Source: Alligator mississippiensis
Lineage: Eukaryota > Chordata > Crocodylia > Alligatoridae
Length of the DNA stretch: 64,000 nucleotides
Direction: 5' to 3'
Assembly: GCF_030867095.1 (NCBI RefSeq)
Contig: NC_081824.1
Span: forward strand, 251,721,956-251,785,955
The notes under the pieces: generated by a model
Databases searched by the model: none
What the model was told of the DNA's origin: nothing
What the model saw: only the letters and a program-made list of their open reading frames with translations
Position numbers and translations under genes: made by a program
Shown here: positions 9,075-51,575 of the stretch, one piece after another
Layout of the letters: every line of letters starts with the position of its first letter
Position numbering within the stretch: position 1 is the stretch's first letter

Positions 9075-11741
9075 GAAGGATCGGGTTGGGAAGAAGGGAG
9101 GAGGTGTGGCCCTCTGTGTGAAAGAGTGGTAGCCCTCCCTGCAGGTCATGTTTGATTGCAGGGAGAGGTCCCTTGAGACCATCTGGTTCAAGATACAAAG
9201 GGGCTCAGGAGAGGGGGACCTGATGGTAGGGGTATACTATAGGCTTCCCTACCAAGAAGAGGAGAGCAATCAGGCATTCTCCAGGGAACTGACTAGGGTA
9301 GCCTGCACCAAAGACCTGATTGTCATGGGTGACTTCAACTACACTGACATCTGTTGGGAAGACCATTCAGCCAGCTCCAGCAGGTCAACCAACTTCTTGG
9401 TAGCTATTGACCTGTTCTTGACACAGGCTGTGGAAGGACTGGCAAGGGGTAAAGCCACTCTGGACCTAGTGCTAACCAAAGGGGAGGACACAGTAGGCGA
9501 CTTGAAGATTGGAGATACTCTGGGCAACAGCGATCACCATCTGATTAGATTCACCATCCACCGAAAGGCTGGGAATACTGTCAGTAGAACAGAAGTCTTA
9601 GACTTCAGAAGGGCAGACTGTGGTAAACTCAGGAATCTAGTTAGAGAGGCCCTCCACGATCAGTGACTGAATGATTTGAGAGTTCAGGAATGGTGGTTGC
9701 TTCCTTAAGGGGGCAATTTTCACTGCTCTAAAAATGGCCATCCCCACGCAGTCAAAAAGTGGGAAGGGGGCCAGGAAACCCGCTTGGTTCAACAGGGATA
9801 TTAGGGAACTTTTGAAAAAGAAGACAGAAGCATATAAGCAACAGAAAATGGTTCAGCAACCAGAAAGAAGTACATTTATGTGGCCAGGGTCTGCTGGTAT
9901 GAGACACAGAAAGCCACGGCAGGTATGGAGATCAAGCTGGCAACTGAAATAAAGGACAACAAAAAGTCCTTCTATAGGTACATAGGGAGCAAGAAAAGAA
10001 TCAAGCTCCACTGTGGGACCCCTATTGAATACTGAAGGGCAGTCCACAGTTGATCCCTGCAAAAAGGCAGAGCTTCTAAATAGTTACTTCACATCGGTAT
10101 TCCTGAAATCAGATGGGAGCTGTTCACCTGTCCAGAGGCCCAGGGACTATGGGGAAGACAACAGTCCACATGAAATCAGTCCCAAACAGGTGAGGGTACT
10201 CTTTGAATATTTGGACATCTTCAAGTCTCCTGGGCCTGACGACCTGCATCTGCGAGTCCAGAAAGAACTGGCTGAGCTCATAGCAGCACCTCTGGCAAAG
10301 CTGTTTGAAGAGCCATGGAACTTGGGAGTGGTCCCGAATGACTGGAAGAGGGCTAACGTGGTACCTATCTTTAAGAAAGAGAAGAGGGATGACCCTGAAA
10401 ACTATAGTCAGTCTGACTTTGGTCCTGAGAAAAATCTTTGAAAAAATTGTTAAGGAGGCCATAAATCACAGGCTCATAACTGATGGGGTACTGAGAAGCA
10501 ACCAACACAGCTTTATGGAGGGTAGGTCATGCCTAACAAGCCTGGTGTCCTTTTATAACCAGGTAACTAGCCAGCTGGACAAGGGACATGACATCATTTA
10601 CCTAGACTTTAGCAAGACTTTTGATTGTGTTTCCCATGAAATCCTCTCAGTTAAACTGGAGGGTACTGGCCTAGCTCAGTCTACAGTGAGGTGTGTTGGC
10701 AACTGGCTCAGAGGCCAATCCCAGAGAGTTGTAATCGATGGGATGGCCTCATCCTGGAGGACCATCTCCAGTGGTGTCCCCTAGTGATCCATGCTTGGGC
10801 CCATGCTCTTTAATGACTTTATCAATGATGATGAAGGGGTGGGAAATGCAATGATTAAGTTTGCTGATGACACCAAGCTGTGGGGAAATGTGGGCACATC
10901 AGAGGATAGGGTAAAGATCCAGGATGACCTCAACAGACTGGTTCTATGGGCTGAATGCAATCAAACGAGGTTCAATAGGGATAAGTGCCGGGTCCTTCAT
11001 CTGGGTAGAAAGAACCTTCACCATAACTATACGATGGGCAGTGCTCCACTGGCTAACACTGCATCTGAAAGGGACCTGGGGGTGACAATCAACCAGAAGA
11101 TGAATATGAGCCAACAGTATGATGACGTTGCCAGCAGGGCAAATAGAACTCTGGCGTGTATCAGCCAAGGTGTTGCGAACAGAGGTGCTCCTCCCTCTCT
11201 ATTCAGCATTAGTTAGGCCACAGCTGAAGTACTGCATCCAGTTCTGGGCACGGCACTTCAGGAAGGATGTGAATAAGCTGGAAAGGGTACAAAGAAGGGC
11301 CACCCATATGATTAGGGGCCGGGAGGATAGGCCCTATAAGGAGAGACTCTGGGAACTGGGCCTGTCCAGTCTGAGTAAGAGAAGACTGAGAGATGACTTG
11401 ATACCTGCCTACAAGCATGTCAGGGATGAACACCAAGATCTAGGGGAGAAACGTTTCAGGAAGGCACCTCAAGGGAGGATGAGGACTAATGGGCACAAGC
11501 TAATTGAGGAAAAATTCAGGCTTGACATCAGAAAAAACTTCTTTTCTGCAAGGGGAACTAGAATCTGGAACACACTCCCAGCAGAGGTGGTGCAGTCAAC
11601 ATCCTTGGAGGCATTTAAAAGGAGGTTGGACAAGCACCTTGTCAAGCTTGTTTGAACCCAATAACCTCCTACCCATGGCAGGGGACTGGACTTGATGATT
11701 TTGCAGGTCCTTTCTGGTCCTTTGATTCTATGATTCTATAA
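9075..11741 (+). mobile_element. CR1 LINE, long 5'-truncated copy
   Basis: The reading frames across this block encode, in order, the end of an AP-endonuclease domain (GDFNYTDICW at 9328-9357; SDHHLIRF at 9529-9552), the reverse transcriptase entry (SPGPDDLHLRVQKELAE near 10230-10275; FKKEKRDDPENY), the YLDFSKTFDCVSH motif (10603-10640), the catalytic FADD box (FADDTKLWG, 10860-10886) and the C-terminal CR1 tail (KRRLDKHLV). The copy ends in the CR1-type 3' octamer repeat 'gattctatgattctata'. The frame shifts several times, and an in-frame stop lies just before 10791, so it is inactive. ORF1 is absent. Confidence 0.9.
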
Positions 11742-19379: not shown

Positions 19380-19617
19380 ATGTCCCTGTCTCGCGTGGAA
19401 AATCCCTGTTTTCTGCTCTTCCTCGCTGGCTTTCAAGCATTGTTTATCCTAATCCTGTACCGAGGTGGAGCAACCAGTGTGTTCCGGGGGATTTTGGAGG
19501 CACCTCGGGCCTTGGATTACTCCAGAACACACGATGTGTACTCAAACCTCAGTCTGTTCACCCGAGCACTGAACAAGGACACCATGCGATACTGCACAGC
19601 CCAGTCGCCAATATTCG
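19380..19617 (+). CDS. B4GALT3-like coding exon 1: cytoplasmic tail, TM anchor, stem
   Basis: Residues 1-79. The start is set by alignment to B4GALT3, whose N-terminus has the same pattern (short basic tail, then one membrane segment, here about residues 9-28). The context is GCCATGT, with G at -3. The anchor is followed by the stem and an N-glycosylation site, N56-L-S, inside the conserved DVYSNLS. Cys72 corresponds to the first disulphide Cys of the family. The donor is TTCG|GTGCGT. The frame is open upstream to 19095, so a longer N-terminus is possible. The likely exon boundary is the acceptor 'gctccacttggcag' ending at 19124, which gives 255 nt of 5' UTR in this exon. Confidence 0.85.
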
Positions 19618-20939
19618 GTGCGTATAAGCCACCACTGTCTGCATTTCAGCATCATGACGCTTTACGCTCTGTAAAAGTCAAATGCATGCTCTCATAGGCC
19701 TTCTCCCCTAGAAAAGGTTTGTAAAACCCAGTTGAGATGGTGCTACTTCTTGTTTTCCCTCTTTCAGCCAGCGACAGCACATTTTTGCTGATCTAGTTTC
19801 AATGCCTTTGCTGTGGGTGTGGGTTGGGGTGTTTCTGAGAAATGAGCATACTCTTTGCAAATAACTAGCTAGAAAGCGCCCTGTGTCAGTACATCTTAGT
19901 AACTTAACGTGGTCTTACTAGGCCTTTCTATTAGTAATTCTGCTCTGTAGGCCAAACTGCAGATGAAAGGAGTTAATCTAGGTATTGGAAACTGACTTTC
20001 CTGTGATAGAGACTATGAAACAGTATAGATGGTGCTGAGCAGTGTAAGCTTAGTTCCTGTCTTTGCCACTGCGCCACCAGAGTTAACGAGCAGTGAATGC
20101 TGTGATGGGCTCTAAGTACAATTTTTGACAGAAGATACTGCAGTTAGTCCTCTAACCAAGATGGAAAGTGTTTTGCTCTTTTGTGGCCTTGATGAGTGAT
20201 GCAATCTTGGATGCTACCAGTTCACAGTTTGTAAAGTTTTGCGGCATGGGTTGTACCATTTGTTTACTTAAGGAAATATCCCAACTACCCATTTAGCAGC
20301 AAGCTGAACCATTGCAACCTATTGTGCAAGCTATAGTGAAGTTTGGGCCCAACTAACTGCCATCTGGCAAAGGTTTGAAAAGGTCTGGATGATAATGGTG
20401 TTTCCTTTTTTAATCCACATTTAAAACTAGTGGTTTGGTGGAAGAGGAAGAAGTCAGCCACATGCAAACATGTTTTTCGAAAAATTCAAGTTAAAACTGT
20501 GAGCTTTGTAGCCAGGTTGGGCACAGTTGTCCTCCCTACCAGCTGTCTGCATGGTATGGTACATCTAGTCTGTAGTTCAAGGCTAGTCTGCATACATACC
20601 TGCTGTGAACTGTAGTCATTTCTCTGAGACACCATGCGCTAGTAGGTGCCCATATACTCTTAGGATGCTTATGTGAGTGCATAAATTTAGGTCCTGTGTA
20701 TCCATGTTGTGAATAAAGCTGCCATGAGTATGTAGTGCAACTGGTTGTGGTAAACTGTTTGAGTTAAACACTGCTGCACTAATACTGACAAGCCTTTAGA
20801 CTCTGTACAAGGTTTATAACAGTATTTAATTAAGCTTTGGTATTTTTTCCTGCATCACTTGAATTTAAATGAAATAAACACTGCCACCACGCAGGCAATG
20901 TATGTTGTTCTCCCATATCTTGTGCTTGTGTGCCATAAC

Positions 20940-31047: not shown

Positions 31048-31283
31048 TTGGTCCATTAACGATCAGCTTCAATATGCTCCCCAGTGAAAGAACAATTATT
31101 AACAAAAATCCCTTTGTTCAGCCTGGTGGCCGCTACAGCCCTCCTCATTGCCTGGCTCGCTATAAATCAGCCATCATTATACCACACAAGAACCAGGAAA
31201 AGTACCTTCGACACCTTCTCTATTACCTTCATCCCTTCCTGCAGCGCCAGCAGCTCCATTATGGCATCTACTTGATTCAGCAG
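31048..31283 (+). CDS. B4GALT3-like coding exon 2: start of GT7 N-terminal domain
   Basis: 236 bp, the canonical length of B4GALT exon 2. Residues 80-158 with the family signature YLHPFLQRQQLHYGIYLI and Cys114 (the second disulphide Cys). The acceptor is 'tatttcttgcag' and the donor CAG|GTAAAC. The UDP-contact block that reads PHRxRE in B4GALT3 (P-F-R-N-R in B4GALT1) is here PHKNQE: Arg to Lys at 127 and Arg to Gln at 129. I place these by gap-free alignment with the remembered human B4GALT3 sequence. Confidence 0.9.
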
Positions 31284-31775: not shown

Positions 31776-31966
31776 GCTGGAAATACCACATTTAACCGAG
31801 CAAAGCTCCTTAACGTTGGCGTCCGAGAAGTCCTGAAGGACGAGGACTGGGACTGCCTCCTCCTCCATGATGTGGACCTTGTTCCTGAGAATGATTATAA
31901 TCTCTACATCTGTGATGAATACTTCCCCAAACACATGGCTAGTGCTGTGGACAAGTTCCAGTACAG
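31776..31966 (+). CDS. B4GALT3-like coding exon 3: DVD motif exon
   Basis: 191 bp, residues 159-222. It contains FNRAKLLNVGVRE (UDP-contact FNR kept), Cys185 and Cys204 (second disulphide kept) and HDVDLVPEND with D190-V191-D192, the metal/UDP motif. An added glycosylation sequon is N161-T-T. The acceptor is 'attctcttccag'. The exon ends TAC AG followed by GCAAGA, that is a GC donor with otherwise perfect consensus. A weak GT donor 6 bp upstream (CCA|GTACAG) would also keep frame but would delete two residues and alter the conserved YSLPY. Confidence 0.9.
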
Positions 31967-32066
31967 GCAAGAGCCTCCATTCACATTAGGATTGGATGTT
32001 TTTGATAGAATAAATAGTCTGCTCCTTCTCTAAGGGCACAAATAGCCCAAACTTGAATGATTAGCA

Positions 32067-34943: not shown

Positions 34944-35063
34944 CTTGCCATATTTGTCCTTTTTTGGGGGTGTATCTGCATTGACACCAGATCATTACAT
35001 GAAGATGAATGGATTTCCTAACACCTACTGGGGTGCTGGTAGTGAAGACGACATTGCTGCAAG
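34944..35063 (+). CDS. B4GALT3-like coding exon 4: altered catalytic-loop exon
   Basis: 120 bp where the family has 123. Residues 222-262. The frame reads YSLPYLSFFGGVSALTPDHY, then MNGFPNTYWGAGSEDDIAAR. In active B4GALTs the loop is [10 protein letters not shown]. Here Trp is replaced by Ala253, Gly by Ser255, and one Asp is missing. The donor-specificity Tyr of the QYFGG motif is Phe228. Acceptor 'ttctcctctccag', donor AAG|GTACTC. The sequence is otherwise well conserved, so this is not simple decay of the whole exon. Confidence 0.9.
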
Positions 35064-36535
35064 GTACTCATGGGAAGGATGGAGCAATTTAAAAAAGGAA
35101 TCTAAAATTCTAACATAAACTTGCATTTTCTTGCACTCATCTGTAATTTCCAGAGTGCTAAAATTCAATGCCAGAAATGTTGGTGCAGGACTGCTGGTGT
35201 TGGGAGATGTTTAGATCTGTAATTTTATTAGAGGCATTTTTCTGTGAGCTTTGCACTTTGAATGGTAGAGAGCATTGCATGGTGTAATAATCCTGCATCT
35301 CCAGTGGGTTCAGGGTTCTCCTAAGAGCTCTGTAACCAACTGTCATTGACAGCTGACTGCCTCTTAACGTGACAGCTCTGTAGGAGGGAACGCACTGGCT
35401 GATGAGAGAGAAAACCCAGGAGGTAACCAAGGCATTTAGTGGATTTTGATTTAAAAGTACGGGATTTGGGACATGGTACATACTGCCCAAGAGACTTGTT
35501 TAGTAACTGTGCAGTACTTAGGAACTGAGTAACTTATGGAAGCCTGATTCCTATCTTTATGCTTGCAGACTGTGACCTATCATAAAGGCATATGTACTGT
35601 GTACTATGTGAGTCACTTTGCAAAATGTTATCATTTTTCTTGTAGCTGCTGTTGCTTAGGGAGGTGACATGATATGAGAGTTAAATTGCAGAATCTGCCT
35701 AGTGATTCTCTGCAGAGTACATGGTAAAGACCTCTTTGGCCATGTCTCCCTGGTGAGCTTTGTAGCTGTAATTCACCCTTGATACTGCTCTCTGTCTGTG
35801 GACATTAAGGCAAACTAATGGGGTGGTTATATTACTTGTTTTCTTCCTCTTACACAATGTGACAAGTTATGCAACTTCAGTGGAACATTTTGTTCAAGGA
35901 CTGTGCGAGTTTCATTAAGTATTGTGCTCCTGGGAATGGAAAGCTAGGTGTTTAACAGGAGCTTAATTGCTTTCATCAGAGAAAGGAACATACAACTTTT
36001 TTTTAGAGATTCAGCATTCACTCTAAGGAATGGGATATCAGGATAAATGGTACCTAAGCAAAAAAGAAACAGAAGATTCACACTCCACCTACCACACAAG
36101 ATCTGTTCAAAAGCCCTCATGGCTCAACATACGCTTGTAACATGGAGGGGTCAGTGGTAAAGTGCCATACAAGAGTCCTGTGAATTTCACTTTACTAACA
36201 TTAAGGAAGAAATCCATTGCGGGGGAGGAGGATTATGTTCATTTGTGTATGCTATCAAGCCTGTTGCCTTGAAAGAAAGTAAATCTCATGAAACATCCTG
36301 TGAGAATGAAGTACTTGTTATCAGCAGCCCACCCTTTAGGTGGAGATTAATCAAAGATTATTCAGACATAGAGACTAACACTTACAAAAGTCAGTAGTGA
36401 TTTTTTTAAGTGACTAGGTTGAGACCCTTAAAATGGATCCGCTCTACAAAACACTGAGGTCCTACCTTAAGGAACAACAAAAATGGACTTGAGTTTGAAA
36501 GTTAGCATGAATAAAGTTAATGTATTTCCAGTACC

Positions 36536-37439
36536 AAAAAAGAGGACACCTGACAGGGGGACACCTCACTCCCAACCTGCAGCCCCTGTCCCTGCTGCCG
36601 CCTTTCACTCCCAACCCACAGTCCCTCACCACCTCCAGGCTACGCTGGTGTCTCTCAGTCCCAACCTGCAGCCCCCCAATCCCTGCTGCTGACCCTCACT
36701 TCTGACCCACAGCCCCCTTCTCCCCTCAGCCCTGCCAGAGGGGCCCCCAGCTGCCCCTGTCCTGACTGGGCCACAGCGCGGCGAGTCCGATTCATGCAGG
36801 AGGTGGCTGAGCGAGTCCAGCCCTGGCATGGGCTGGAGGGAAGAGAGGCTGCCTGTGGCACCCCCCGCCCTGGGCTGAGGCTGCAGTACTGCGCCAAGTG
36901 GCTTAGCCACACCCTCCCTGAGCAATGTCTCTTGGCCAGCTCAGCCCTGTGAGCAGGGGCACCAGCTCTGGTGCCACCAACCTGGCCACAGAACTCCCCG
37001 TTGTCTTTAAAGGGCCCCCCTTTCCCTTTGGAGGGGCAGGTGCCTGTCTCCTGCCCTGCGCTACCACAGCCCCAGCGCTCATACACCTTCCACCAGCAGG
37101 CACCAGCCCCTCTCACGCATACGCACACATGCATGCATACACATACCCCTCGCACGCACGTGCACACACACACCCCTCCCTGGACAGTCCCCAAGCCCTA
37201 CTCCCCATAGACTTACCAGCATCCACCTGCCAGGGATGCTTCCACCACCCTGGCTACGTGTGTGTGCACGCAGACGCATGTGATGCCCCCTGTCTCCAAT
37301 TGCCTTCCCTCCCTTCCCTCCTCCCACCAGCAGAGCAAAGCAGAATCATGGATACTAGTTCTCAGACACCACCCGGACAGAGATTGGAGGATCCAAAAAG
37401 AGGACATGTCCAGGAAAACCCAGATGTATGGTAACCCTA
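36536..37439. mobile_element. Possible DNA-element fragment in intron 4
   Basis: A GC-rich island in AT-rich intron. The right end reads, inverted, AGGGTTACCATACATCTGG followed by GACATGTCCTCTTTTTGG, a terminus common in reptilian non-autonomous elements. The left end lacks the matching terminus, so it is incomplete or rearranged. Confidence 0.35.
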
Positions 37440-38824
37440 GGCATGACCCCTTGCTGTCCTTTCCTTTGCTATCAGGATTTCATATTAGACCACAACATTT
37501 AAGAGTAGACTTCAGCTACCACCATATTAACCATTAACTTGCAGTTAATATAACCAGGTAATGGTGCTCCACATTGTGTCAGCTAGTCATGGCTAAACAG
37601 CATTCCCAGAAAGTACCTTTATCCTCCACATTCACCTCCTATAAGAAGTGAATACCTTAGTCTAATTGGGACCATTTAAATGTTAGCATTATGAAACGCA
37701 GGCAATTCAGTGGAATGATCTCTCTGATTTATTTTTTAAAATAATGTATTACCTTAGCCTTTTAATATTCAAATTGCATTATTGCTGTTAAAGTAACGAT
37801 TGCAACAGCAAAGTTAGTTGAGCTTTCTGGCATGTCTCTTTCCTGGTGAAGTGTGCAGTGCTGTTTGTTAGCACTCAGAAAATACCACCCCCTGGCCATA
37901 GTCCAATTTGAGATAATGGTATTTTATCTAATGCTTAAAGATTTCCTCCTAGTGAACTAGTAACACCCATTGTGCTTTTATTATTTGATATCTTTAGTGT
38001 AACGTGAATACTTTTTGAAACTCTGGTCCCTTCCTAATGCCTTCAGAGCAGGAATGTTGCTTTGCACCTTGCTGCTGTCATCCTCCTCTGTCTTGGCTAT
38101 ACATGGAATTTCACTAAATTAAATTGGAGACACTTTAAGGGTGCTAATTGGCCAAACTTACCTGAAGGAACCATCAGCATGTTTAACAAAGATGGTGGTA
38201 GCAATGGTTTGGAAATGTGGAGCCTTATCTACACTTGAAAAGTGGTACTCCAAAGCCCCATCTTTCCCTGCATGTTAGCATAATGCATTTTCACTGGCCA
38301 CTTCACATTGCATCTGTAATACATGTTATGTACTACTGGTGTTCCACAAAGGAAATACTCCCATCACACAATTCCCATGAATGCAAAAATGAGTTCTCTT
38401 CAGAAACTACAGCTGTTAGACAAAAGACCAAGTCTAGGTAATTTTACTGACTTAGCAGTAGGAGCCCTATATTATGGAACACTGTTCTGGGGGAGTAATG
38501 TTCTTGTCTCTACACACATGGGAGCTGTTCTGTGGATGACCCTCCCCAGTCTGTTCTCTGCTTTAATGATCTTCTGTCTTCCCAGCCACCAAGCATCATA
38601 GTCATTTCTCTTCCAGTCAAAGAGTAAGTCAGTGGTGTCCTGCTGCTATATGCTTTGGGAGCATATGTAAATATTGGGTATCATTAAATGCCATTCCCTT
38701 TTCTTGGATTCAGTGAACTGCCTTTTCAGCGCTCTTTTTTTTTTGTTGTTGGTTGTGTTGATACCAGCTTAGATGTAGCAACCTTATGTATAAACACAGA
38801 TTTTGCTTTATTTCCATGTTAAAG

Positions 38825-38929
38825 GATTCAGTTAGCAGGAATGAAAATAGCCCGGACCCCCATTCATCTTGGACGCTACAAAATGATGGATCAGGAGCAA
38901 ACCGCAGGGAGGGAAGAACTCCTAAGAAG
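38825..38929 (+). CDS. B4GALT3-like coding exon 5: metal-His exon with His lost
   Basis: 105 bp, the same length as in B4GALT3. Residues 262-297. LAGMKIARTPIHLGRYKMM aligns without gaps with LAGMKISRPPTSVGHYKMV. The next family residues, KHRGDKGNEE, are replaced by DQEQTAGREE. So the metal-ligand Met is kept (M282) but the metal-ligand His is Gln285. Acceptor 'tttatttccatgttaaag', donor AAG|GTAACA. Confidence 0.88.
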
Positions 38930-40727: not shown

Positions 40728-40899
40728 GCCTGCTCCACTTCACGACACCACAAAAACCTGGAGGGACGATGGAATGAATACTATAGAGTATATACTCCTT
40801 GCTAGGAAGGAGTACCCTCTGTATACCAACATCACAGTGGACATAGGATATGTTCCCCCAGTGCTTTCAAAGAGTGCAAAGAAAGGAAAAAGAGGTTGA
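40728..40899 (+). CDS. B4GALT3-like coding exon 6: C-terminus
   Basis: Residues 297-353, stop TGA at 40897-40899. The family C-terminal block WRDDGMNTIEYILLARKEY and the sequon-bearing LYTNITVDIG are intact. They are followed by a short lysine-rich tail (SKSAKKGKRG) unlike the longer proline-rich tail of human B4GALT3. Acceptor 'tattcttctccctttag'. Confidence 0.9.
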
Positions 40900-47197: not shown

Positions 47198-47339
47198 TTA
47201 TGAGACCTTGGGCTGCATGCTGAAGTCTACTGTGACATTGATGTATAAGGGGTTGTGTTCCACCGAGAGCAGCTTATAGGAACAGGAGTTGAGCCCATCT
47301 GTCTTCCATACCCGGGACACCTGTCGCAATAGCTTCATC
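47198..47339 (-). CDS. B4GALT4: B4GALT4 last coding exon
   Basis: It codes MKLLRQVSRVWKTDGLNSCS, then YKLLSVEHNPLYINVTVDFS and a short tail MQPKVS, stop TAA at 47200-47198. The sequon N-V-T is present. The tail after DF differs from the mammalian protein. Acceptor 'ctttgctgtgcctgcag'. Confidence 0.95.
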
Positions 47340-47866
47340 CTGCAGGCACAGCAAAGGAAAAGTATTCTTTGAAGTACAGCAGAAATGTGGGAGCACTGAG
47401 CTGTATCCCATGCCCTGGTAATACGTCCCTACCCTTGCAAGTTCACCTATATTTTCTTGTATGCCAGAAGTATTGGGAAGCACCAAGCCCTGCTTTCCTT
47501 TCCTTTGGTAAACCCACACATCCATCCCCAAGAGCTGATAAGCTCTCAGGAAAGCCTAGCTTTTTAAGTTTTCTAACATCCTTGCAGAGTCATACATGAT
47601 CAAACCATGGCTGCCTATCCATGGTGTCTGCCACATCTTAACTTTGCTTTAAAGTTTTTTGTGGTTACTTACATACACAGTTTTGGGAAATGCTAAGCCA
47701 TGAAAAGAGAGCCCCACTTATGAGCCTCATTTGCTAGGCTCACAGTAGTGTCTGTCAGGGGCTCAAGCTAATGACTCCTTATGTGCATGTAAGCACAAGG
47801 CAACAACCAGCTCCAGGTTCCTCTTGCACTGGGTCTCCTGGCTGCCCAAGATGAAGATGCACTCAC

Positions 47867-47971
47867 CTCTCTCCATTCTCCTCATTGCCTCTGTCTCTGG
47901 TGTGGAAGATCATGGTGTACTTGGCTACATCAGGGGATGGCCGCATCACTTTCATCTTCTGTATCTCAACC
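47867..47971 (-). CDS. B4GALT4: B4GALT4 coding exon with metal-binding His
   Basis: 105 bp. It codes VEIQKMKVMRPSPDVAKYTM, then IFHTRDRGNEENGER. The metal-ligand Met and His (M-I-F-H) are intact. Acceptor 'gactgtttccag', donor GAG|GTGAGT. Confidence 0.95.
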
Positions 47972-50900
47972 CTGGAAACAGTCATACTGCAGTTAAAAGA
48001 AGCCAGTAGTCACAGCAAGGAGAAAGCTGGAGACTAATTCTTGTAGAGGGCACCTAGACACCATGGTGAGGGGACAGCACATGTGGTTTAGTAGCACAGA
48101 GACTGGCTGACACCAGCCTCAACACATGCATCCTCACCAACACTACACCATATGCACGCATGAAGCCCACAGCCTCTTGTGTTCCTACAGCAGTTGACTG
48201 GAGCTACAGCCACCCCCTCTTCTGAAGGCAGATGATCAGCTGTTGCCCTGGCATCTGTCATGGGTGTAACAGACATTATATAAGAACTTACAGCTTAAAC
48301 AGGCACTGCCAGACCTAGCTCTTGTGGATTGTATTCATTCAGGGAATCTCGAGCCGGGCCACATACATCCTGCAGCCAACCTATCTTAACTTCTGGGGCA
48401 AGGCCCCTGGATTCTCTGCCTCCAGTAGGGTATCCTAGAGACTTTGGTCTCATCAAGTAAGTTAAAAATTACAGCAACTTCTTTTCTGTCCTGGTTGTAT
48501 AACTGACTTAACTGCAGTAACTGAATGTATAATGCAGTTAAATTCTATTACTTTTAATTTGATATTTGATTCATAGTTTTATGAAGTCCTCACATGTTCA
48601 GTGGGCTGTGGAACTGTACATGAAATGCACAACAGCACTGGCAAAACTGGCAAAGGGAAGCTGAAAGCAACCAGAGTAGCATGGAAGAACTGTGAATTTT
48701 GGCAACAGCAGAGGCAGGAGAAATCCATTAGCAATTTGTTTCTGTTCAAAGGACCAAGGAACGTGGAAAAGGAATATCTGCAATATTTTGGCTGAAGTCC
48801 TGGCCCACAGAAGTCTATAGATTGCCAGTTAAATTAGCATCATGAGGCTTCAAGGAAAATATTTTTATTGAGATGAACTGAGCAGTTGACACCCCTCCAT
48901 CCTACTTCTCGAGGCAGTCTGCTGTATTTGGACACACCTCAGTTTGAACACTTTCTACACTTGGAGGATTTTCTTTGCCACAGCAAATGCTAGAACCATG
49001 CAAGGCTGGTGTATGGATTTAAGGGCATAATGATCAAGTTAAAACCTTAAAAAAAGCAATCTATGGAGCACAATTCATCTGCAAACTGCGAGATCCAGAA
49101 CAAATCTCAAAGACAGAAACTGGAGTGCACACAGGGCTGTATTTGCCACAAAAGCAGCATATAGTTATGCAGTAAGAAGCTATAGTGTCTAAGGCCTTTG
49201 ACTCAAGATAGCAGTAAATTGTCCTCATAAGCTTTATTTTAGAAAGAGGCCCACAGGTTAGGAACATATTAAATATAGAAGCAAAGATGTAACTGCTTCC
49301 ACAGCATACTTGAAGATGATGCTACAGGGGACGCTGCCATCTTCTGGAAACAAAAGAAAACAGCACTGAAGAGCAGTCTCAGATCTAATGGTTCTGCTCT
49401 TAGAGAAGCAGATTCTCTATCACTCCCTGAGCACAGCTGTGTAAGTGCCCCAGTGCCAGGGCAAATCAAGCTGAACACCACTTTGATTCCAGCAACTAGT
49501 GGCATGCTGAGGTCAGTAGCACAATAACTACTCCATGCTGCCAGATGGCCTTCCACAATAATACCCATGCCTGCCCTCTTACAGCACTTTTGATTTTGTA
49601 TGGAATTGGGGAAGAGGAGACTGGACAAGGTATTGCTTGCCATAAAGAAAAGCTTAGGTCTTGAGGCAACATCAGTGAGCCTGTAATAGAAAGATCCTGT
49701 AATAAAACAGAATAATGTTTATTCCACAGCAGAGCTGTTAAATTGCTTGAACCTCAGGACTGGGAGTGATAAACTGTCCAGATTATGTCTACCAAAGAAA
49801 CATCTTTGGAAATTCTTGCCTTTGCATTTCATAGCCTTCATTACATCAATCCTAGGGATTCACAGTTAATTTCCTGGAAACATTTATCTGTCTCTGGCTT
49901 TGCTTTAAGGAAACAAGGGAAAGTTCAAGAGCTCCTCAGTTTGCAAGCTTCCTAGTTGTGGCTGCAGCTTGTAAATGCCATTCTCCAAAGCTAATGGTTG
50001 GATGGAAGTACAGAGATGCTCTGAGCTCCTTCACTCTAAACTAGGCAGAACAAGTTCAGCACGCAAACTACACCCGCACCTTGCTCCAAAGCTGTTAAAC
50101 CTCAAGCTTGCAAGCCCTCCTGCTTGAGCAGCCGAGTTTCTAAAATTCATGAAGACAGACAGCTATACTGTTAATTCCTTGGACACACAAACACCTGCAA
50201 GAGAACAGAAACTATTTTGTCACCCCTGTTGCAGCCCCTATAATCACATGCTCAAGGAAAATATAGGGGCCTGAGGAAATGCACCAACTTTCCCTGTCTG
50301 CAGAGTGCTGGCACTCAGTCGGTTGGTCCTTCTTTCAGCAAAACCTACCACAGACTTTGCTCTTATTCATTTTTATACCTATCCCCAAGCAAGCATCCAC
50401 AGGCATGTTTCCATGGAGGGCCTGGTAAAAATGCTCCAGATGTGAGGACAAGGGGGTGCCAATAAGCTCTGCTCAGAGAGGCAATTATAAAATAATGTCA
50501 GCCTAACCAACCACTAACTGTCCTTCAAGGCAGACAAAAGATTGGAAAGAAATCACCAGATAGTGTCAGATCATTGCTCCAGTCACTCTCCTTGGACAGA
50601 GAGCAAGGGTAAGTAACCAAGAGTGCAGGAACCTAGTTAATCACAAGGTGGTACAAAGAATTCAGCACACAGTAGCAATTGACCCAGAACCTGCACAAGC
50701 CAGATAATCTAGCCTAGAAAGAAAATGTATCAGAAAGGTACTAGTCTGAGGTCATCAGAATAATTGGGGTAATAAGGGTAACCTCATCAACCTCTTCTTT
50801 TTATTCTGTCCTTTACAATTTGAGAGCAAGGAGACTGTAGCCACACAATACAGATAGGTAACAACCAGTTAAGGAAACAATAGTCAACACAATCTGTCCC

Positions 50901-51452
50901 AACCCAGGGGATCAAAGGAAATATGCTGCCTATATCTGGCCCTCCAAGGTATGAGTTACAATTAGGTTTCCATTGGGCACGAGAAGCCAAGACAGGCTGG
51001 ACACATTTCGTGATGTGTAATTCCAGTCCTAGCTCTGTGAGCTAAGAGGACAAGCAAACAACCCTGATGATGGCCCATCAGCAATGTTTCACACCTCCAT
51101 GTTTACACTCACTCACCAGCTGAACCAGGGGCTTTTAAGTTTATTCATCTTAATTGGTTAGAAAGGAATGCATACCCAGTGAAAAAAACATATACAAAAA
51201 ATGGATGTCAACTTGTCTCGATTGTGGTTTTTAAAAAAAATGTGGGCCTATTGTTCTGGTTTCACACAGAGAAAAGCTGTGTTCAGAGCTGCAACTTGCA
51301 TACTAGCTTATTCCAAATCTCTTGGGGCATTCAGCAAGGGAATCCCTTCCCCAGTCTAGCTGCACTGGAATCCACATAAGAAGTTACACATTAGCAGCCT
51401 CCGCAGAAATACAAATCACCCCTCCCATGCCATGCACACGTGCTTTCCTTAC
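47972..51452 (-). other. B4GALT4 intron, nothing recognised inside
   Basis: Between the two internal B4GALT4 exons. No further exon, RNA gene or nameable repeat was found on either strand. Confidence 0.5.
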
Positions 51453-51575
51453 CGGATTCGGAGGTCGTCGTCCTCACCACCCCAACCCCAGTAGTTGTTA
51501 GAGAATCCATTCACCTTGGAGAACTGGTCCCTGGTTAGAGCAGTCACTCCACCAAAATATCCTCGGTAACGTAAC
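51453..51575 (-). CDS. B4GALT4: B4GALT4 coding exon with GWGGEDDD loop
   Basis: 123 bp, the usual length. It codes [18 protein letters not shown], then [19 protein letters not shown]. The donor-specificity Tyr (GYFGG) and all loop residues are intact. Acceptor 'tgtgtctctag', donor CCG|GTAAGG. Confidence 0.95.

Follow-up and report, generated by a model that had tools for sequence, protein, structure and literature searches.

A B4GALT3-like gene of Alligator mississippiensis: a putative ancient pseudoenzyme shared by reptiles and birds

Alligator mississippiensis carries, in a 64,000-nucleotide stretch of contig NC_081824.1 (assembly GCF_030867095.1, forward strand, positions 251,721,956 to 251,785,955; hereafter the window), a paralogue of the galactosyltransferase gene B4GALT3, here termed 3L for B4GALT3-like. 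Parts of the active site of its product appear to have been lost in the common ancestor of living reptiles and birds (the sauropsids) and the fold to have been kept since, and a fold conserved in this way suggests a function different from the usual chemistry. From the comparison of homologous sequences, we strongly infer that ordinary galactosyltransferase activity has been lost in sauropsid 3L. The catalytic loss is shared among orthologues and is accompanied by constraint elsewhere, the combination that marks a putative conserved pseudoenzyme. The description of a probable pseudoenzyme that is ancient and shared, rather than of one odd crocodile gene, thus holds.

The Gene and Its Product

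The gene lies on the + strand at 19380-40899, spans 21.5 kb of the genome and encodes 353 residues. A preliminary description of this DNA, which placed the gene at 34944..38929 and so covered exons 4 and 5 only, had proposed six exons that join over 1062 nt with usable splice sites and no stop. The joined exons bear this out, with zero internal stops and with five usable introns, four of them GT-AG and the third with a GC donor (window position 31967), a rare but accepted splice type.

The product scores 188.6 bits for Glyco_transf_7N and 73.7 bits for Glyco_transf_7C (Pfam cut-offs 27 and 23), and it shares with B4GALT1 both the GT-A fold and the four cysteines. A structure model predicts that the transmembrane helix encoded by exon 1 comprises residues 9-38. 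The closest homologue among the matches listed is a gharial protein (99% identity over 353 residues, E 6.3e-241), which is annotated as beta-1,4-galactosyltransferase 3.

Homologues and Kinship

The best 120 matches of each of two protein searches were combined into 152 homologues. Site counts were made on 77 of these together with the window protein and bovine B4GALT1, whose numbering is used for residue positions. The 77 comprise 25 sauropsid 3L clusters, which with the window make up the 26 sauropsid rows referred to below, 28 3L rows with the active motif and 24 rows of canonical B4GALT3. The shorter sauropsid rows P0014, P0062 and P0100 were retained. Omitted were P0001 (a 99% copy of the window protein), another 20 sauropsid 3L models that are truncated or alternatively spliced, and 54 more rows.

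In a tree of 71 rows, the window gene and 26 other sauropsid rows form one clade (Shimodaira-Hasegawa-like approximate likelihood ratio test, SH-aLRT, 100). This clade lies within a larger 3L clade (91) that adds amphibians, chimaera, sharks, ray, gar, bowfin and bichir, and the 3L clade is sister to canonical B4GALT3 (86). A tree of 68 rows rebuilt without the columns of the Trp loop, the lid and the donor site recovers the same sauropsid clade (100/99) and canonical B4GALT3 (100/100), which rules out that the active-site columns themselves created the clade. The window gene clusters with the sauropsid members of the 3L clade and apart from canonical B4GALT3, and it is therefore placed as the crocodilian orthologue within the 3L lineage, a B4GALT3 paralogue of vertebrates. 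Because cartilaginous fish stand on both sides of the split between 3L and canonical B4GALT3, the split seems to predate the last common ancestor of jawed vertebrates, and it presumably arose from the early whole-genome duplications.

No named mammal was found among the matches listed in either protein search. A mammalian 3L of ordinary conservation should outrank the canonical rows that are listed, so it is likely that 3L was lost in mammals.

Loss of the Active Site

The Trp-loop Trp is absent from all 40 sauropsid 3L rows that have the loop, and six further sauropsid rows lack the segment. This count uses all 152 homologues. Among the 40 rows are isoforms and fragments, and some rows share a species; the rows come from crocodilian, turtle, bird, tuatara, lizard and snake. 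GWGGEDD is kept in 106 of 106 other homologues, including 3L of amphibian, shark, gar and bichir. The lid pattern with its His fits all but four of these 106: P0075 has Gln, P0080 and P0081 are without the segment and P0142 is distant. P0075, a canonical B4GALT3 of Pyxicephalus, reads MVKQ at the expected site of the metal His; it is a single row and could be an error.

In the window, the active site has Ala at 314, K189, Q191, Q347 and a one-codon deletion. These observations agree with the preliminary description, which had read GWGGEDDD as GAGSEDD with the loss of one codon (exon 4 has 120 nt, and the family length of 123 nt is taken from aligned lengths), had found Gln285 in place of the metal His and Lys127/Gln129 in place of an Arg pair (they align with bovine H347 and R189/R191), and had seen DVD retained at 190-192. 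Relatives, to which it had looked for a possible refutation, share the losses: His is absent in 25 of the 26 sauropsid rows and, like the Trp, is lost within a single clade. A private crocodilian decay is ruled out, as the losses are common to sauropsid 3L. Of the manganese ligands D254, M344 and H347 (listed in PMC7565966), the window protein keeps Asp and Met and has Gln for His, and so does not have the ligand set of a catalytic enzyme.

The degree of loss differs greatly among sites. In sauropsid 3L, W314 is kept in 0/26 rows, H347 in 1/26, D350 in 1/26 and N353 in 0/23. Intermediate retention is seen at R191 (7/26), M344 (10/26), D318 (12/25), D252 (16/26), R189 (18/26) and D254 (21/26). 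The ligand residues follow the lists in PMC6198961 and PMC7565966; for R189, D318 and Y289, the roles known for the enzyme are used. Position 314 is occupied by Asp in 8 of the 26 rows, Arg in 6, Ser in 4, His in 4 and four other residues once each. On the tree built without active-site columns, the minimum number of changes is 1 for W314 and N353, 2 for H347, D350 and P187, 3 for Y289 and D254, 4 for R191 and D252, 5 for R189 and M344 and 6 for D318; Y289 is also variable in 2 of 42 other rows. Thus W314, H347, D350, N353 and Y289 (to Phe) were lost on or near the stem of sauropsid 3L, and R191, R189, D318, M344, D252 and D254 were lost later, repeatedly and in different lineages. These change counts make the loss seem two-phase, an ancestral hit to the Trp loop and lid, after which donor, metal and catalytic positions decayed repeatedly and independently.

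Other contact residues persist, and they allow a rival explanation, in which the dead GT-A domain was kept as a lectin-like binder or nucleotide-sugar sensor, with selection on binding in a partly remaining uracil/ribose and sugar pocket. F226, L255 and G292 are kept in 26/26 rows, R228 and R359 in 25/26 and E317 in 23/26, and the DxD motif is whole in 15/26, including the window, both turtle rows and 10 of 11 bird rows. However, R191 is lost in 19/26, D252 in 10/26 and W314 in 26/26, most rows have other residues at the lid acceptor positions F360 and I363, and the binding residues are still decaying independently. Such a binder is unlikely, if still worth serious consideration.

The lid of sauropsid 3L also has newly conserved residues, namely Asp346 (21/26), Tyr347 (17/26) and Pro360 (21/26); window residues 284, 285 and 298, which correspond to bovine 346, 347 and 360, are Asp, Gln and Pro. 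Y289 sets donor preference in B4GALT1, and Phe289 occurs in 25/26 sauropsid rows. A transferase with changed chemistry, in which the metal ligand has shifted (Asp346 with Tyr347) and Phe289 goes with another donor, acceptor or metal, would account for these new donor and lid residues. We consider it distinctly unlikely, since position 314 varies freely and D318 is kept in so few rows, unlike a selected active site, and D254 is lost in 5/26.

It is very improbable that sauropsid 3L is an ordinary, slow beta-1,4-galactosyltransferase that tolerates its changes. Several contact residues remain, and the manganese-site change M340E reportedly lowers activity by 94% rather than abolishing it (PMC6198961). 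However, W314, H347 and R191 are all lost in the window, where the loop is also shortened, and the same paper describes the Trp loop as under strict conservation across B4GalT1-7 and animal orthologues. Among 19 contact residues, each sauropsid row has 4-8 that are unseen in active-motif rows (4 in the window); the mean for active-motif rows, each considered singly, is 0.15, with P0042 reaching 4, three of them gaps. Losses are enriched at the contact residues listed in PMC6198961 (p 0.045, 0.007 and 0.009 at three cut-offs), which is weaker than the loop test given below.

Five bird models (P0023, P0024, P0031, P0039 and P0049; 301-304 residues) lack the exon-4 Trp-loop segment in frame, by real skipping or by prediction noise.

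Constraint on the Rest of the Protein

The Trp loop and the lid are released from constraint, and the core is held. The fold cysteines that the preliminary description reported as kept (72, 114, 185 and 204) align with C134, C176, C247 and C266, and each is present in 26/26 sauropsid rows. Outside three loops, the mean pairwise identity of the catalytic domain is 0.77 in 12 sauropsid 3L, 0.73 in 8 amphibian 3L with an intact motif and 0.75 in 7 fish 3L, where the sauropsid and amphibian sets are presumed to be of similar age. The Trp loop falls to 0.64 in sauropsid 3L versus 0.94 in amphibian 3L and the lid to 0.41 versus 0.65, while loop1 does not drop (0.75 versus 0.73). The tail and transmembrane segment are at 0.84 in sauropsid versus 0.59 in amphibian 3L (canonical 0.88). 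When overlapping stretches are compared, the same drop occurs in 17/261 for the Trp loop, in 7/243 for the lid and in 141/254 for loop1, which makes this test of loop relaxation suggestive.

The 53 active-motif rows share 108 invariant columns, and 63 of these are unchanged in all sauropsid rows with a residue at the position, 59 of them without any gap. Columns kept in fewer than half of the sauropsid rows number 8 of 18 in the Trp loop and lid versus 3 of 90 elsewhere (Fisher p 1.5e-5, to be read as a description because columns are not independent).

From the sauropsid ancestor to the window, the protein underwent approximately 93-102 amino-acid changes. Under neutrality, about 5 stops and about 9-10 frameshifts (with an assumed indel share of 10%) would be expected on this path, and the window has none; for stops alone, the probability of zero is 0.006-0.009, as an average over the whole period. 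Protein-level conservation and frame survival together support purifying selection, as had been proposed for a protein kept despite its catalytic loss.

Slow pseudogenisation, in which a relaxed gene is on its way out and perhaps already lost in mammals, is quite improbable on this evidence. It could account for evolution faster than that of canonical B4GALT3, for truncated or oddly spliced bird and lizard models and for the missing mammals among the matches listed. Yet the core is as conserved as in amphibian 3L, the frame in the window is intact where stops would be expected, near-full-length clusters occur across crocodilian, turtles, birds, tuatara, lizards and snakes, and the losses cluster in the donor site and in two of the loops.

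Transcripts

Spliced 3L transcripts are inferred in a bird and, in part, in a turtle-like contig. P0008 (361 residues), whose only source is 'lgn', presumably an SRA contig assembly, matches over 97% of the query without a break and is placed beside a grouse protein in the 71-row tree. Its longest contig has 2349 nt, which for a gene of 21.5 kb is best explained as an assembled complementary DNA, a retrocopy being the alternative. P0011 (goose and others, 15 contigs, the longest 2357 nt) agrees, and its sequence may derive from genome annotation. In P0076 (turtle-like, 1054 nt), exons 1-3 are joined and are followed by read-on.

A Possible Role as a Partner

In the cycle of human B4GalT1, the Trp flips in, the lid closes and manganese is held by Asp, Met and His (PMC6198961). 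In sauropsid 3L, which is without this Trp and His as well as D350 and N353, closure of the lid on manganese, uridine diphosphate galactose and acceptor would be expected to fail. If the lid cannot close, the protein would be a type II pseudoenzyme of the Golgi rather than an ordinary beta-1,4-galactosyltransferase. The conserved core and transmembrane segment would then pair with an active glycosyltransferase, an active B4GALT being the first candidate, and 3L would stabilize that enzyme or tune its specificity, as CHPF does for CHSY1/3.

This partner role is favoured because the transmembrane segment, cysteines and core are kept, because homomers of these enzymes form mainly via their catalytic domains (PMC6198961) and because CHPF/CHPF2 provide a precedent. 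The residues named for the dimer salt bridge in PMC6198961 (bovine E317 and R334) are kept in 23/26 and 25/26 sauropsid rows. An ancient Golgi type II pseudoenzyme that serves as a non-catalytic partner of an active glycosyltransferase is the reading that we find most likely, with a probability somewhat short of even, and the partner role within it is conjecture.

Several points weigh against this reading. H343A in human B4GalT1 abolishes homodimers (PMC6198961); the corresponding His is lost in sauropsid 3L and most rows have replaced the lid contacts F360 and I363, so a dimer of the B4GalT1 type may be weakened. Many donor-site residues are retained and DxD is whole in 15/26 rows, which makes nucleotide-sugar binding or weak activity possible. 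P0007, a gecko cluster, is the sole analysed sauropsid 3L row with His347, by reversal or retention; it is without W314 and has Val at E317. The 3L clade is also the faster one, with a core identity of 0.77 as against 0.87 for canonical B4GALT3 in sauropsids. Finally, protein databases under-list genes with stops, which biases cross-species intactness upward.

Genomic Context

The 3L gene lies tail to tail with a convergent neighbour, which we take to be B4GALT4 from the style of its sequence; further upstream exons of B4GALT4 type lie just past the window edge (Table 1).

Table 1. Coding exons of the 3L gene and of its neighbour, in window positions
Feature	Position	Strand	Remarks
Exon 1: cytoplasmic tail, transmembrane helix, stem	19380..19617	+	ATG at 19380; donor GT at 19618; 98-99% to gharial protein
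Exon 2: catalytic domain start	31048..31283	+	P-H-K-N-Q versus bovine 187-191 P-F-R-N-R; C114
Exon 3: FNRAKL, DVD (190-192)	31776..31966	+	C185, C204; GC donor at end (31967)
Exon 4: Trp loop GAGSEDD	34944..35063	+	Ala at W314 position, one codon lost; FFGGV with Y289F
Exon 5: lid	38825..38929	+	Met282 kept; Gln285 at H347; Thr288 at D350; Arg291 at N353
Exon 6: C-terminal strands	40728..40899	+	NITVDIG, stop TGA
B4GALT4 last coding exon	47207..47341	-	tblastn, bounds approximate
B4GALT4 lid exon	47866..47979	-	His kept (MIFHTRDRGNEENGER); bounds approximate
B4GALT4 Trp-loop exon	51452..51574	-	GWGGEDDD intact; bounds approximate

In the genome (2.35 Gb, 195 contigs), canonical B4GALT3 lies on a separate contig, C15, in six segments with 92-100% identity to the Alligator sinensis protein. 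The matches listed in the genome search, where counts are lower bounds, include no second copy of the window gene. Together with its six exons and the old clade, this rules out a recent duplicate or retrocopy. Neither an Rfam family at gathering cut-offs nor a transfer RNA was found in the window. Pieces of a non-LTR (long terminal repeat) retrotransposon, with Exo_endo_phos_2 and RVT_1 domains, lie at 9148-10781 (+).

Significance

A whole sauropsid clade breaks the rule of the strictly conserved Trp loop, apparently once and with its fold retained. It is a natural experiment in which the enzyme died and the gene did not, and amphibian and fish 3L, whose motif is intact, provide the sister set. 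In databases, sauropsid 3L goes by the names 'beta-1,4-galactosyltransferase 3' or '3-like' (the gharial entry is without the suffix), names that hide the active-site loss, and predictions of bird and reptile glycans that trust them may count one enzyme too many. It may be, though this is somewhat less likely than not, that a pseudoenzyme fixed in stem Sauropsida serves an active Golgi glycosyltransferase as a dedicated subunit without catalysis of its own, on which the stability or specificity of that enzyme depends. Reptiles and birds would then control their glycans at a level that is missing in mammals, which would have lost the gene.

Comparison with Known Systems

Among the open-access papers listed, none dealt with a B4GALT3-like pseudoenzyme. 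Canonical B4GALT3 (family GT7) is the closest paralogue of 3L, with six exon-wise matching segments in the genome, a similar tail, transmembrane segment and stem and 54-59% identity among the matches listed. It differs from sauropsid 3L in that GWGGEDDD is kept, His is kept in 24 aligned rows, it forms a separate clade and lies on another contig, and it has a long C-terminal tail (523 residues in total in Alligator sinensis). The b4galt3-like proteins of amphibians and fish (e.g., 'b4galt3-like 1' of Xenopus laevis) belong to the orthologous clade and mostly have about 350 residues, but unlike sauropsid 3L they keep W314 and H347 in 28/28 aligned rows.

The best sequence match of the window protein in the PDB is the W314A mutant of bovine B4GALT1 (1pzt, 1pzy), which likewise has Ala at 314. 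That mutant is engineered and retains the lid, His and Arg residues of the enzyme; no paper on W314A was found among the open-access papers searched.

An inactive glycosyltransferase paralogue kept by selection is a known kind of protein, of which sauropsid 3L is a new instance. COSMC (C1GALT1C1), the chaperone of C1GALT1, is an inactive paralogue of a Golgi glycosyltransferase; it belongs to another family, its client is known, and it is likened to 3L by description only. CHPF and CHPF2, the GT31 and GT7 proteins that partner CHSY1/3, have likewise kept a degenerate GT7 domain, whose donor residues presumably correspond to the B4GALT positions. In this domain, the donor residues (in CHSY3 Pro, Arg, DxD, Glu, Asp and His) are not conserved, and CHPF/CHPF2 are called essential for complex formation, likely by stabilizing the complex (both from PMC12748766). 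Unlike 3L, they are large two-domain proteins with a middle domain and a known partner, and they too are likened to it by description rather than by sequence.
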